A DNA stretch of 64,000 bases from Actinoplanes lobatus. Lineage in GTDB: Bacteria; Actinomycetota; Actinomycetes; Mycobacteriales; Micromonosporaceae. Position numbers and translations under genes: made by a program. The notes under the pieces were generated by a model. That model saw only the letters and a program-made list of their open reading frames with translations, was not told where the DNA came from and did no database searches. Shown here piece after piece: positions 49,265 to 53,374 of the stretch. Location: positions 2,857,001 through 2,921,000 of the forward strand of contig NZ_JACHNC010000001.1 in NCBI RefSeq assembly GCF_014205215.1, written 5' to 3'. Within the stretch, counting starts at the first letter, position 1, and every line of letters starts with the position of its first letter.

Positions 49265-49627
49265 ATGACACAGCCGCATGATCCCCGGGGCAACCTGGTG
49301 CGGCCGTACGCGGTCACCCGTGGCCGGACCGAACCGATCCGGGACATCCCGATCGAGGCGGTCCTGATCGCCAGTGCGGCGGCCGTGCAGGAGGCACGGT
49401 TCGCCGGACATGACAAGTACCGCATAGCCGTGCTGTGCGAGCCGAAGGCGTTGTCGCTCGCCGAGCTGGCGGCGCACACCAGGTTGCCCTTGGGGGTAGC
49501 CCGGGTGCTCGTCGCCGACATGGTGGCCGACGGGCTGCTTCAACTGCACAGTGCCGCTCCCAAGACGGGGTTCACGGAGCGGATGGACCTGCTGGGAAGG
49601 GTGTTGGGTGGACTTCGCAAGCTCTGA
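49265..49627 (+). CDS. DUF742 protein (conservon CvnC)
   Basis: The 120-residue protein contains the DUF742 pattern: NLVRPYAVTRGRTEP near the N-terminus and IAVLCEPKALSLAELAAHTR. A winged-helix-like end follows (LPLGVARVLVADMVADGLLQ, then LLGRVLGGLRKL). ATG 49265 follows GACGAGGTGACC. Its 3' end overlaps the GTPase start by 20 bases. Confidence 0.9.
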   Translation: MTQPHDPRGNLVRPYAVTRGRTEPIRDIPIEAVLIASAAAVQEARFAGHDKYRIAVLCEPKALSLAELAAHTRLPLGVARVLVADMVADGLLQLHSAAPKTGFTERMDLLGRVLGGLRKL

Positions 49628-50219
49628 GCGGACGGGGCCGAATCCCGCGGAGATCACGTCCGCGAAGATCGTCGTCGCGGGTGGTTTCGGTGTGGGGAAG
49701 ACGACCCTGGTCGGGGCGGTCTCCGAGATCGAGCCGCTGACCACCGAGGCGGTGATGACCGTGGCCGGCGCCGGCATCGACGATGCGTCGAAGGTGCCAG
49801 GCAAGGAGAGCACGACGGTCGCGATGGACTTCGGCCGGATCACGATGGCCGACGACCTGATCCTCTACCTCTTCGGGACCCCAGGTCAGACCCGGTTCTG
49901 GTTCATGTGGGACGAGCTGATCCGGGGTGCGGTCGGCGCCGCGGTGCTCGTCGACACGCGACGGCTCACCGACGCCTTCGCGCCGCTGGACTACTTCGAG
50001 AACCGGCATCTGCCCTATCTCGTCGCGGTCAACTGCTTCGACGACGCGCCACGGTACGAGCCCGACGAGGTGCGTGAGGCGCTCGCCATCCCGGCGCGGG
50101 TGCCGCTGCTGATGTGCGACGCGCGGCATCGCGAGTCGGTCAAGGCCGTGCTGATCGGGGTGGTCGAGCATGCGATGGCGACCCTGGTTGCCGAACACGA
50201 GGCCGCGGCGGTCGGCTAA
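49608..50219 (+). CDS. Small Ras-like GTPase (conservon CvnD)
   Basis: This is a 203-residue GTPase. G1 is GGFGVGKTT (residues 25-33). FGTPGQTRFWFMWDEL replaces the usual DxxG region, and VNCFDDA stands in for NKxD, as is typical of the CvnD/MglA-like group. GTG 49608 has GGAAGG upstream and overlaps the DUF742 gene by 20 bases. It is expected to be controlled by the roadblock and kinase proteins at the membrane, in a G-protein-like relay. Confidence 0.9.
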   Translation: MDFASSERTGPNPAEITSAKIVVAGGFGVGKTTLVGAVSEIEPLTTEAVMTVAGAGIDDASKVPGKESTTVAMDFGRITMADDLILYLFGTPGQTRFWFMWDELIRGAVGAAVLVDTRRLTDAFAPLDYFENRHLPYLVAVNCFDDAPRYEPDEVREALAIPARVPLLMCDARHRESVKAVLIGVVEHAMATLVAEHEAAAVG

Positions 50220-50772
50220 CCCACGCCGGGCGCACACCTTTCCCGACCTGGTCCTGCGGACCGATCGCCTGGTGCTGCGGGAGCTGCGGGAATCGGACGC
50301 CGGCGACGTCGTCGCCGGCGCCTCCGACGAGGTCACGCAACGCTGGCTGCCGCTGCCCCGGCCCTACACCGAGCGGCACGCGCTGCTGCTCATCAACGGG
50401 CTGGCCCCGGGCACCCGGGCCACCGGCCGGGGCCTGATCCGCGCGGTCGAGCACGCGGGCGTCTTCGCCGGCGTGCTCGATCTCAAACGCGCCGACTGGA
50501 TGGCCCGCTCGGTCGAGATCGGCTACTGGGCCATGCCGGCCGTCCGCGGCCGCGGCGTCACCACTGAGGCGGTCACCGCCCTCACCCGCTGGGTGCTGCA
50601 CGACTTCGACTTCGAACGCGTCGAGCTCCGCGCCGCCCCCGGCAACCGCGCCTCCCAGCGCGTCGCGGTCAAGGCCGGCTTCGTCGCCGAGGGCGTCGCC
50701 CGCAGCGCCGGCACGCTCCGCACCGGCCGCACCGACCTGACCGTCTACAGCCGCATCCGTTCGGACCCCTGA
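50170..50772 (+). CDS. GNAT N-acetyltransferase, RimJ/RimL type
   Basis: The family pattern is LRTDRLVLRELRESDAGDVV, VEIGYWAMPAVRGRGVTTEA (acetyl-CoA loop RGRGVT) and NRASQRVAVKAGFVAEGVAR. The 200-residue frame begins at ATG 50170 inside the GTPase gene; TTG 50188 is the only nearby in-frame alternative, and both overlap. Co-transcription with the conservon is therefore likely, suggesting an accessory role. The substrate is unknown. Its stop codon is the start of inverted repeat copy A. Confidence 0.82.
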   Translation: MRWRPWLPNTRPRRSANPRRAHTFPDLVLRTDRLVLRELRESDAGDVVAGASDEVTQRWLPLPRPYTERHALLLINGLAPGTRATGRGLIRAVEHAGVFAGVLDLKRADWMARSVEIGYWAMPAVRGRGVTTEAVTALTRWVLHDFDFERVELRAAPGNRASQRVAVKAGFVAEGVARSAGTLRTGRTDLTVYSRIRSDP

Positions 50773-50906
50773 AGAGCAGAACCCCGATGTCGCATCTGAG
50801 CGGGTGGTACAGACCGCTGCTCCCGCCGAGGGCCCGGGGTGACTCGCTGGCCGCCGGCGCGTCCAGAACGCTCCCCACCCCGGGCGACGTGCGTGAGTGG
50901 TCGCGC
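50769..50906. repeat. Long inverted repeat, copy A
   Basis: These 138 bases start with CTGAAGA at the stop codon of the GNAT gene. They match the reverse complement of 51468-51604 at about 85% by hand alignment. A 30-base identical run lies at 50802-50831 (in copy B, 51542-51571). Confidence 0.85.
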
Positions 50907-50907
50907 T

Positions 50908-50946
50908 CCGGAACCGCGCGTGGGCCGAACCCACCCGCGGTTCCGG
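50908..50946. terminator. Stem-loop between GNAT gene and secreted protein gene
   Basis: CCGGAACCGCG (50908-50918) pairs with CGCGGTTCCGG (50936-50946), with an inner TGGG/CCCA pair. It lies between the convergent GNAT and SH3-like genes and may terminate both. Confidence 0.55.
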
Positions 50947-50952
50947 CCGCGA

Positions 50953-51348
50953 TCAGCACAGTTGATCGCTGCCCTGGCCACTGAGGTAGGCGTCGGACAC
51001 CCATCCGTAGACGGTGCCGTAGCGGACGTAGCTCCAGGTGTCCGTGTCGTAGTAGCCGATGACGCGGTCACCGGCGGTCCAGCAGTGCAGCGCCACCGAG
51101 GCCCCGTTCGGGATCGCGCCGGTCATCGCCTTGGCGCAGGCGGTGTGCGGTCCGGTGCGGATGTTCAGGCCGGTGGAGGTGCCGACCACGGTGTCGGAGC
51201 CGTCGTCGAGATTCGAGTGGCTGTGCGAGCAGCTCGCGGACGCGGGCGCGGGGGTGAGCCCGACGATCGCGGCGACGGGCAGAAGAGCGGTCACGACGGC
51301 GGCGGCGAAGCCTCGCGAGACACGGAACGTGTGGGGACGCACGATCAT
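50953..51348 (-). CDS. Small secreted SH3-like (SH3b) protein
   Basis: The 131-residue precursor has a signal peptide (GFAAAVVTALLPVAAIVGLT, cleavage near SASA). The mature domain is short and cysteine-containing, with the bacterial SH3 pattern GTSTGLNIRTGPHTACAKAM, GDRVIGYYDTDTWSYVRYG and YGWVSDAYLSGQG. SH3b domains often bind cell wall, but no catalytic domain is attached. ATG 51348 abuts GGGAGG; GTG 51342 has better spacing. The gene lies entirely between the two long inverted repeats. Confidence 0.8.
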   Translation of the reverse strand: MIVRPHTFRVSRGFAAAVVTALLPVAAIVGLTPAPASASCSHSHSNLDDGSDTVVGTSTGLNIRTGPHTACAKAMTGAIPNGASVALHCWTAGDRVIGYYDTDTWSYVRYGTVYGWVSDAYLSGQGSDQLC

Positions 51349-51467
51349 CCTCCCAGGGGGCCGAGGCCGATCTTCGATTGAAGATCACCTGTTTCTCGGC
51401 ACGCTATTCACCGTCACTCTCGATCCACTGTCGAATCACTCTCGGCGAGGGGTGGGCGGGTTTTCGT

Positions 51468-51604
51468 GCGCGACCACTTACGCACGTCGCCCGGTGGGGC
51501 TCGCGTTCTGGACGCGCAGCGGCCAGCGAGACGCGCCGGGTCCTCGGCGGGAGCAGCGGTCTGTACCACCCACCCCGATGCGACAGCCTGATTTTGATCT
51601 TCAG
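51468..51604. repeat. Long inverted repeat, copy B
   Basis: The inverted partner of 50769-50906. Read on the minus strand it begins CTGAAGA at the stop codon of the HemD-like gene (51601-51603) and ends near GTGGTCGCGC. The two copies are separated by 561 bases containing the SH3-like gene and its promoter. Confidence 0.85.
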
Positions 51605-52746
51605 GTGGGGATGCGGTAGCCGCGCTTGACGACGGTCTGGACCACGCCGGGGAGGGCGAGGCCGGCGCGGAGGCGGGCGACGGCCATCTCGACCGCGTGT
51701 TCGTCGGCGCCGCGGGGGAGGGCCTGGAGGAGGGCGGCGCGGGACAGGACGCGGCCGGGGGAGCCGGCCAGGGCGCGCAGCACCGCCATCGGGGCGGGGG
51801 CCAGGGGGCGCAGCTCGCCGTCGACGATGGCGGCGTGGCCGCGCAGGGTGAGGGAGTGGCCGGAGACCTGGAGCGTGACGGCGCGTTTGGGCAGCTCGTC
51901 GACGATGGTGCGGACCAGCGAGTTCAGGCGGGCGCGGCCGGGAACGGCCACCGGGATGCCGTGCCGGCGCAGCGGGGCCGAGGTGACCGGGCCCACGCAG
52001 GCGGCCAGGACGTCGTCGCGGAGAGCGTCCAGGAGGGCGTCGGCGCCGGTGCCGGCGGCGCGCAGCACGGCCTGGACGGCGGCGGCCGAGGTGAACGTCA
52101 CGGCGTCGACCAGACGGGCGATGATCAGATCGACCAGGCGGTGCAGCGGCGCCGGGTCGGTGGGCGGCGCCCAGCGGTAGACCGGCAGCTCGATGACGTG
52201 GGCGCCGGCCGACACCAGGGCCTCGGTGTACTCCGGCTGGCTCTCGCCGTGCAGCTGCATGGCCACCGTCCGGCCGTCGATGCCGCGCGCGGTCAGATGC
52301 TCGACGACCTCCTCGTAGCCCTCGCCGTCCGGTGACCAGTCGTCGCGCAGGCCGGCGGACCGGACCGCGGCCTTGGCCTTCGGGCCGCGGGCGACCAGGT
52401 AGGCGCCGGACAACACGGCGTGCAGCGGCTCGGCCAGACCCCAGCCCTCGGCGGCCTCCAGCCAGCCGCGCATGCCGATACCGGTGTTGACCAGCACGAT
52501 GTCGGGTGGACTGTCCAGACAGGCACGGGTGGCGGCGCGCAGCTCGGCGTCGTCGGAGATGGGGACGATGCGCAGCGCGGGAGCCACCACGACGCGGGCG
52601 CCACGCGCCTCCAGCAGGGTGGACAACTCGTCCTTACGGCGGTCCGCGGTCACGCCGACGGTGTAGCCGGACAGCGACGCGGCCGGCTCCGCCAGTGCGG
52701 CAGCCGTCAGCACCGCCCGCCGGGCGCCCGGGGTGCGGTCGATCAT
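51601..52746 (-). CDS. HemD-like domain fused to OmpR-type winged helix; NnaR-like regulator
   Basis: The first 260 or so residues of this 381-residue protein match uroporphyrinogen-III synthase (SLSGYTVGVTADRRKDELST, DAVTFTSAAAVQAVLRAAG, LAACVGPVTSAPLRRHGIPV). The last 90 or so form an OmpR-like DNA-binding domain (RALAGSPGRVLSRAALLQAL, HAVEMAVARLRAGL, VVQTVVKRGYRIPT). The same fusion is found in the nitrate/nitrite regulator NnaR of Streptomyces. No nitrogen genes adjoin it here. ATG 52746 is chosen; a longer frame to 52800 lacks support. Confidence 0.85.
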   Translation of the reverse strand: MIDRTPGARRAVLTAAALAEPAASLSGYTVGVTADRRKDELSTLLEARGARVVVAPALRIVPISDDAELRAATRACLDSPPDIVLVNTGIGMRGWLEAAEGWGLAEPLHAVLSGAYLVARGPKAKAAVRSAGLRDDWSPDGEGYEEVVEHLTARGIDGRTVAMQLHGESQPEYTEALVSAGAHVIELPVYRWAPPTDPAPLHRLVDLIIARLVDAVTFTSAAAVQAVLRAAGTGADALLDALRDDVLAACVGPVTSAPLRRHGIPVAVPGRARLNSLVRTIVDELPKRAVTLQVSGHSLTLRGHAAIVDGELRPLAPAPMAVLRALAGSPGRVLSRAALLQALPRGADEHAVEMAVARLRAGLALPGVVQTVVKRGYRIPT

Positions 52747-53374
52747 CCGATCCCCGGGCCGAGAAGTCGCGGCGTGGCCGAACGGTCCACCGAAGGGCAC
52801 GCTCGAAGCCCGCCGTCCTCAGCGTCGACCCGCTCCCATGCCACGCTTGCGGTCCTCGCCGTACCTCCGTCCGGGGCACGCCGCGACTCCTCCTCGCCGA
52901 ACCGGGCAACCGGTCCGGTGAACACCGTCAGGTCCGTCCTCAACCCTGACGGTGGTCTCACCATGGTGCGCCCGCGAGCGCGGCTTCGGCCACTGCCGGG
53001 CCGCGTCGTCGTGAGGTCCGCACCGTTGGCCATGACCGAAGCGTGCCGGGGGCGAATTTCGGCAGAGCGTCCCGTTTGTTTCAGGCCTGCTAAGTCGGTG
53101 GCGGTGGGATACGCCACCCGCCTCGGGCGTGTCCGGAGCGCGGAGTATGCTTGCTCTGCTTGGGGTTCCACAGGGCTGAGTGTCTGCAACTAGGATGCTC
53201 GCCGGTTCGCTGGTGCCCTGAACACCGCCTGTTTTGACCGCTCGCCGCGTAGCCGGGTATTGTTGCCTGCTGTTGTGCGACTGTTGCGAGTGGTCCCTGT
53301 GCGGGGTCGCTTGACGCATCTGTTCGATGCGACCAGTGCGCGCCCCCAGACCGACGACGAGACAAGGTAATTCT
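52747..53374. other. Intergenic region upstream of rplM
   Basis: This 628-base stretch separates the HemD-like gene (minus) from rplM (plus). Open frames exist on both strands but show no family features and are probably GC-driven. The rplM promoter lies at 53234-53263 and is followed by an untranslated leader of about 105 nt. The part from 52747 to about 53200 shows nothing I can assign beyond expected promoter sequence for the HemD-like gene. Confidence 0.55.
53234..53263 (+). promoter_or_regulatory. Promoter of rplM-rpsI
   Basis: TTGACC (53234-53239), an 18-base spacer and TATTGT (53258-53263). The start site would be near 53270. Confidence 0.65.

Follow-up and report, generated by a model that had tools for sequence, protein, structure and literature searches.

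Two facing repeats behind hemD

Why do two convergent genes of Actinoplanes lobatus each end in a copy of the same long repeat? The window analysed here is a stretch of 64,000 nucleotides, and coordinates refer to it unless stated otherwise. A GNAT acetyltransferase gene on the + strand (50170..50772; a codon-usage gene caller places the start at 50272) faces hemD on the - strand (51601..52800; start placed at 52746 by the same caller). The stop codon of the first adjoins unit A (50769..50914), and the stop codon of the second adjoins unit B (51460..51604), which is inverted relative to A. A conserved GTPase-like gene (Pfam ATP_bind_1; 49608..50219, + strand) is also present; it is the immediate convergent neighbour of hemD in several relatives. 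In the HemD protein the HEM4 part is joined to a Trans_reg_C domain at the C-terminus.

Over 138 alignment columns, copy A (50769-50906) differs from the reverse complement of copy B (51468-51604) by 20 mismatches and one gap, and the longest identical run is 30 bases. The initial annotation had described an inverted repeat of about 138 bases with some 21 differences, one gap and 30 identical bases, and this is borne out; the arms were recovered by a repeat search too. Both copies open with CTGAAGA, in which TGA ends the GNAT reading frame (+) in one case and that of hemD (-) in the other. The spacer of about 560 bases holds one called gene (50953..51348, - strand), which is the small secreted-protein gene that the repeats had been said to enclose. 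Its product is secreted-looking, 131 amino acids long and SH3-like, with an SH3_3 match below threshold (E 5.2e-5, 23.8 bits; cut-off 27). Directly downstream of this gene, between its stop codon and unit A, the repeat search found a separate simple hairpin with 17-nt arms that are 94% complementary (50908..50946, no strand assigned); it is distinct from the repeat and resembles an ordinary terminator stem.

A repeat family essentially confined to one genus

The two repeats belong to a dispersed family of structured elements of about 140 bases. Chance origin is excluded because the unit recurs elsewhere in its own genome with E values down to 2.5e-49. The A. lobatus genome (G000) has at least 14 DNA matches at E <=0.001 (the weakest is 29 bases long) and at least 13 matches to a covariance model at E <=0.1. 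Unit A is matched at 50773-50914 (genome 2907773-2907914 on the - strand) and unit B at genome 2908460-2908600 on the + strand. In a DNA search of 40 genomes, this one included, 21 had matches: 20 of the 24 from the same genus and one of the 16 others. About 21 candidates were scored per genome, so the match counts are lower bounds. The initial annotation held that a repeat found only here, and derived from a single local duplication, would speak against its proposals. Copies occur genome-wide; the 13 or more in this genome, together with the 20 of 24 same-genus genomes matched by DNA search, rule out local duplication.

The covariance model matched 40 of 200 genomes from the taxonomic family, with 15 candidates scored per genome and copy counts again being minima. 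Thirty-two of these are from the same genus; the eight from other genera match weakly and once each (E 8e-8 to 8e-4). At least four same-genus genomes have no match (G007, G015, G068 and G215), so the unit is dispensable. G007 is close to the genome of the window (HemD 88% identical) and provides a natural absence for comparison. Among 84,980 species genomes in a single collection, an exact 22-base core of the unit occurs in 104 stretches (L187-L290), all of these stretches being from Actinoplanes or Paractinoplanes; viral contigs contain no exact copy of it.

The family is absent from Rfam by the search made: the Rfam 15 covariance models gave no family match on either strand of window positions 50600-51800 at E up to 10. 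The only candidates were four microRNA matches, each far under its own gathering score, which were taken as chance. No description of the family was found in open-licence literature on Actinoplanes, Micromonosporaceae, palindromic or interspersed repeats, small RNA and miniature inverted-repeat elements, or in the available portions of PMC3364876, PMC3733652, PMC2229807 and PMC2267715.

A covarying hairpin

The main structural feature of the unit is a covarying 17-bp hairpin with a conserved tip. Next comes a short helix with a mini-hairpin inside it, and the 3' end is a U-rich tail, GAUCUUGAUCUU-like, in which the end profile shows no U-run. This description applies to the likely folding strand, which is opposite to the orientation used in the initial annotation: the - strand for unit A (first read as +) and the + strand for unit B (first read as -). 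With columns 30-46 and 69-85 of the alignment described below (A2) mapped onto the window by hand, the 5' and 3' arms of the main hairpin lie at 50870..50885 and 50832..50847 in unit A (- strand) and at 51489..51504 and 51526..51541 in unit B (+ strand). The loop of the mini-hairpin is one which we take to be of GNRA type (GGGA or GUGA on the folding strand); covarying spots at columns 91-126 and 92-99 place this tetraloop. Only some copies have CGTC before the hairpin; A2 column 26 may be either C or G.

A structure-free covariation search returned nested pairs in one long hairpin, both with 98 sequences and again with 67 distinct rows. In alignment A2 (68 sequences, 67 distinct), 94.8% of 2173 cells are paired. 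Changes on both sides are seen in 21 of 33 pairs, and 16 of the 17 pairs in the main helix show double changes. None of 500 shuffles scored as high on any of five measures (82.8% of cells are paired in shuffles), and sliding lowers pairing to 31-43%; these controls flatter the structure, which was itself picked from the sequences under test, and the shuffles do not preserve how closely the copies are related. Within the single genome G003 (putative P. bogorensis), the arms of the 20 copies compared are highly diverse, yet each copy keeps 12 to 16 positions Watson-Crick paired. Folded singly, the copies gain no stability over their dinucleotide shuffles (z 0.08-0.31). Consensus folding of A2 with RNAalifold, which had been suggested for this repeat at the outset, supports the main hairpin; it pairs columns 92-109 otherwise than the mini-hairpin chosen by covariation, and the pairing there is uncertain.

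The strand that folds

Wobble-type mismatches in the main hairpin are strongly asymmetric. In the orientation first read they number 163 C.A against 8 G.T in 113 of 129 copies, counted with an arm aligner that scores both wobbles as mismatches and leaving out the 16 copies without the tip motif. A mismatch that reads C.A in this orientation is G.U on the other strand, and there the 67 distinct rows of A2 give 124 G.U against 2 C.A. Polymorphic columns outside the main hairpin show no strand bias (C/T 9, A/G 10). Three weaker helices, obtained by folding the strand as first read, have G.T over C.A on that strand (157:18, 98:18 and 12:4 cells); selecting them by folding this strand favours such an excess, and they show little covariation. 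The main hairpin does covary, and for this reason it outweighs them. Folding energies were left out of the assignment because RNAalifold disagrees with itself: it gives -9.3 kcal/mol for the strand first read and -31.9 kcal/mol for the other without RIBOSUM, and -95.8 and -90.4, respectively, with it. Judged from base-pair patterns, the folding strand is likely the one opposite to the orientation of the initial annotation. The proposal that these repeats are RNA elements attached behind genes thus stands as regards the family, the covarying fold and the preference for 3' ends; the main fold, though, is likely on the strand opposite to the one assumed at first.

Placement and orientation

Units prefer convergent gene ends. 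Profile searching gave 143 hits, and removal of those scoring <30, spanning <90 positions or repeated left 129 distinct copies, whose neighbours were called with the simple codon-usage gene caller. One copy is overlapped by a called gene and seven have no neighbour in their stretch. The 121 placed copies divide into 62 convergent, 52 tandem and 7 divergent. A partly overlapping set from named genomes, from which one overlapped copy and copies <600 bases from an end were dropped, divides into 38, 49 and 4, respectively (91 copies). By comparison, convergent regions make up 20% of the intergenic length in 400 kb of the A. lobatus genome, tandem regions 59% and divergent regions 21%.

The median distance from the left end of the unit to the same-strand stop codon is 18 bp in the first set (87 copies) and 22 bp in the second (61 copies), and 38 of the 62 units between convergent genes lie <=30 bp from a stop. 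A start exactly at the stop codon, as had been noted for this pair, holds at GNAT, hemD and some other loci and fails as a family-wide rule. Of the two ends of a unit between convergent genes, the tail end is the one closer to its stop codon in 44 of 62 cases in the first set and in 32 of 38 in the second. Orientation at tandem sites is near even (20 vs 32; 23 vs 26), and with no clear bias there a strict 3'-UTR role for the sense gene is not supported.

A through-transcript may form a very long stem, as the initial annotation envisaged; the majority of placed copies are solitary within 1.5 kb. Where two full-length units are close, they are arranged with tails outward: this is so for all 13 neighbour pairs within 1.5 kb (about 9 distinct loci by our own count) and for 16 of 18 within 3 kb, the two exceptions being tails-inward and 1.6-1.7 kb apart. 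When fragments of >=40 positions are included, close neighbours are outward in 14 cases, same-direction in 5 and inward in 1. In some places the first 58-62 unit positions occur alone, 13-21 bp from a full unit and in the same direction (L068, L113:3224-3285, L272:3640-3695 and L280:663-787). L280 has two such partial extra copies and that of L068 lies 11 bp off; they suggest that the tail-side half may be a separate module.

Comparison with known systems

Elements of this kind are already known: ERIC and YPAL are long palindromic repeats of intergenic DNA. ERIC/IRU and the Yersinia palindromic sequences YPAL/RU-2 are non-coding dispersed intergenic repeats of 127-168 bp; as described in PMC2229807, ERIC is co-transcribed and affects mRNA stability, and YPAL has internal inverted repeats. 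The Actinoplanes unit is likewise a non-coding dispersed intergenic repeat with long stem-loops, and its length of about 140 bases falls within the 100-200 bp of this kind. The likeness is one of kind and not of descent; the host phylum is different, and homology was compared through Rfam only. YPAL makes target duplications of 3-26 bp, whereas none is clear for the Actinoplanes unit, and the latter shows a 17-bp covarying helix, a wobble strand bias and outward close pairs. What is unusual in the Actinoplanes family is this compensatory evolution on one strand together with the outward pairs.

REPs and BIMEs, tagged with GTAG or CGTC, are palindromic, extragenic and often inverted dimers, with suggested roles in termination and mRNA stability; REPs are 20-40 bp long with stems of 5-13 bp (PMC3733652). 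The Actinoplanes unit has about 140 bases and several helices and is not a tagged palindrome of 20-40 bp. Nor was it found with the repeat-flanked Y1 transposase (PF01797) of RAYT-mobilised REPs: three unit-rich genomes (G001, G003 and G011, each with at least 21 DNA matches to the unit) have no Y1 match. Bidirectional and intrinsic terminators resemble the unit in lying between convergent genes and in having a GC-rich hairpin before a U-rich tail. Unlike them, it has conserved unpaired bases and further helices beyond what a terminator requires and lacks a U-run, and it also occurs between tandem genes in both orientations. MITEs share with it a short, non-coding, multi-copy nature and turnover between relatives. 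Unlike MITEs, the unit shows no terminal inverted repeats by eye in its end profile, no parental transposon was found, and the two unit-free sites compared show no clean target duplication.

Turnover and possible function

Bacterial long interspersed palindromes are often regarded as remnants of mobile DNA. In this family compensatory evolution, one-strand wobble bias and outward close pairs are combined with occupied, unit-free and swapped versions of one site, so that one can test directly, in a genus of industrial interest, whether these elements are junk or serve as signals for transcript ends.

Shared sites show that units come and go. The L089 site is unit-free in G000 and shows no clean duplication there; at the L008 site, G007 and G068 have the tail motif and no unit. 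The L003 unit in G019 (A. flavus) is a deletion remnant, and the L007 site diverges strongly among relatives (747 bp in G019). G000 and G019 differ in the interval that follows the stop codon at a dnaJ-like site, although the flanks are 98.7 and 92.5% identical; both genomes have a unit here, and these are 76% alike. In all, two loci with flanks 92-99% identical carry different units. Mean unit identity is 82.0% within a genome and 73.5% between genomes, i.e., subfamilies are species-specific. Units beside the same flanking genes in distant species are mostly no more alike than average (67% for L032/L140), as re-occupation or homogenisation would predict. Some pairs are closer: L038/L100 reach 83% and L104/L137 81% where the mean is 73%, and L005/L093 reach 95% where it is 79%. 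These pairs indicate vertical descent as well. We infer that units have spread by insertion and have been replaced over time.

The reading put first here, tentative and drawn from sequence patterns, is that the unit is a dispersed ERIC/YPAL-like element whose RNA fold may form a barrier, effective in one direction, at the 3' ends of genes; such a function is hypothetical. Polymerase would read through from the neighbouring gene toward the gene whose stop codon adjoins the unit tail, the unit RNA would fold, and the transcript would halt or be cut there, so that convergent transcripts would not overlap. A pair of units would guard both convergent genes, one unit per direction. This model accords with the closeness of the tail to the stop codon, with the rarity of units in divergent regions, and with close pairs having one unit for each direction.

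Equally likely is that the unit is a selfish, non-autonomous mobile element (REP-, YPAL- or MITE-like), and both readings may hold. The hairpin would then be recognised as single-stranded or cruciform DNA by a putative recombinase, the fold would have no host function, and copies would persist at 3' ends since insertion elsewhere would be harmful. Sites known with and without the unit, the higher identity within genomes, and the different units between near-identical flanks all suit such an element. Scarcity in promoter regions is expected from purifying selection as well, and a one-strand G.T preference would also suit a fold of single-stranded DNA. Against this, a Y1 match is absent from the three unit-rich genomes named above, none of 18 Y1 loci fetched from other genomes carries the unit, and no transposase was found in the largest 25 of 33 recurring neighbour clusters. 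Differing compensatory changes in many copies of one genome look like per-copy upkeep, and the outward orientation of close pairs is not explained by selfish spread alone. The non-autonomous mobile element proposed in the initial annotation is therefore plausible with regard to unit-free and unit-bearing sites, dispersal and turnover; no partner transposase was found for it in the searches above, its end profile shows no terminal inverted repeat by eye, and the two unit-free sites compared show no clean duplication.

A wider version of the barrier reading is unlikely: the genus may have turned a mobile hairpin to its own use as an RNA-based mark of boundaries that works in one direction, with units set tail-first against stop codons, one per direction between convergent genes, and swapped by module. 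The copies of a genome would co-change with a trans-acting partner, giving species-specific subfamilies at shared sites.

The hemD locus in relatives

In the same-genus genomes examined, hemD converges with the GTPase-like gene, and what lies between the two varies. There is no unit in G007, G009, G004, G001, G013 and G006, where the stop codons are -4 to 20 bp apart, or in G012 and G008 (39 and 73 bp apart). One unit is wedged into 148 bp in G003; G002 has one unit, G011 has one plus a fragment, and G005 has a degenerate piece. G010 has one unit, a fragment and, beside the fragment, an IS110-type transposase gene (L404:4565-5782); IS110 relatives are known to target repeats. In G019 the same pair follows GNAT and hemD, its units separated by 106 bp that contain no SH3 gene. 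Compared with the window its flanks are 95 and 97% identical, unit A is 87% identical, and unit B is 75% identical and of another subfamily. In G014 (A. palleronii) the pair encloses an F420H2-quinone reductase gene. Contents between units thus come and go.

Such variation might suggest a composite cargo unit, in which the inverted pair forms the ends of a small mobile cassette carrying the SH3 gene. The three different contents of the hemD pair (SH3 gene, no gene, reductase gene) are in keeping with this, as is the finding that five of the eight full-length pairs with spacers >300 bp enclose a single complete called gene, from a different family in each case. Nevertheless it is improbable. 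Seven relatives of the SH3 gene occur in other genomes, and the DNA flanking them (up to 1.5 kb) is free of units, so within these flanks the same cargo is not unit-bounded elsewhere and transport of this gene by units is unsupported; the SH3 gene is one of five cargo genes. Most units are single, no transposase is present, and the GNAT gene, which lies outside the pair, is likewise missing from several relatives. The cassette that had been considered for the SH3 gene is not supported, even though pair contents vary.

Other origins of the hairpin symmetry

Template switching in replication (quasi-palindrome correction) makes palindromes more perfect, and could produce hairpin symmetry without selection. 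The fast variation of the arms is in keeping with this. It is nonetheless highly improbable here: perfect complements would be expected, yet G.U is found over C.A on one strand in both counts given above (163:8 and 124:2), and 18 unpaired columns are also >=95% conserved. Long open frames do cross the units, as is usual in GC-rich DNA. That the repeat carries a short protein-coding tail or small ORF is nevertheless hardly credible, since unit length changes by single bases (140-147) with one-base gaps between subfamilies, and the main variation is base-pair compensation with no conserved frame.

Variant copies and motifs

The AAGATCAAGATC tail was considered as a general genomic target motif and rejected, because exact counts in 10 genomes do not track the presence of units. 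AAGATCAA is rare: 464 kb contain 15 occurrences, 10 of them inside genes, and one shuffle gave 1. The tail without a unit in G007 and G068 at the L008 site means, however, that the tail may belong either to the unit or to its target. In G019 the interval orthologous to that of the L008 unit (L343, G019 C3) contains a different long palindrome of about 93 bases where G000 has a unit. Four copies form a subfamily with a rebuilt hairpin tip (L031:1260-1403, L051:1754-1897, L094:1468-1611 and L012:1500-1643); three of them are in G019, two of these at places where G000 holds another unit type. All 19 G003 rows of alignment A1 (L129-L144, L038, L057 and L061) carry UCCC (GUCCC in 18), where most other genomes have GUCG. 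The UCCC type of G003 is also present at sites common to other species, which points to homogenisation or re-occupation.
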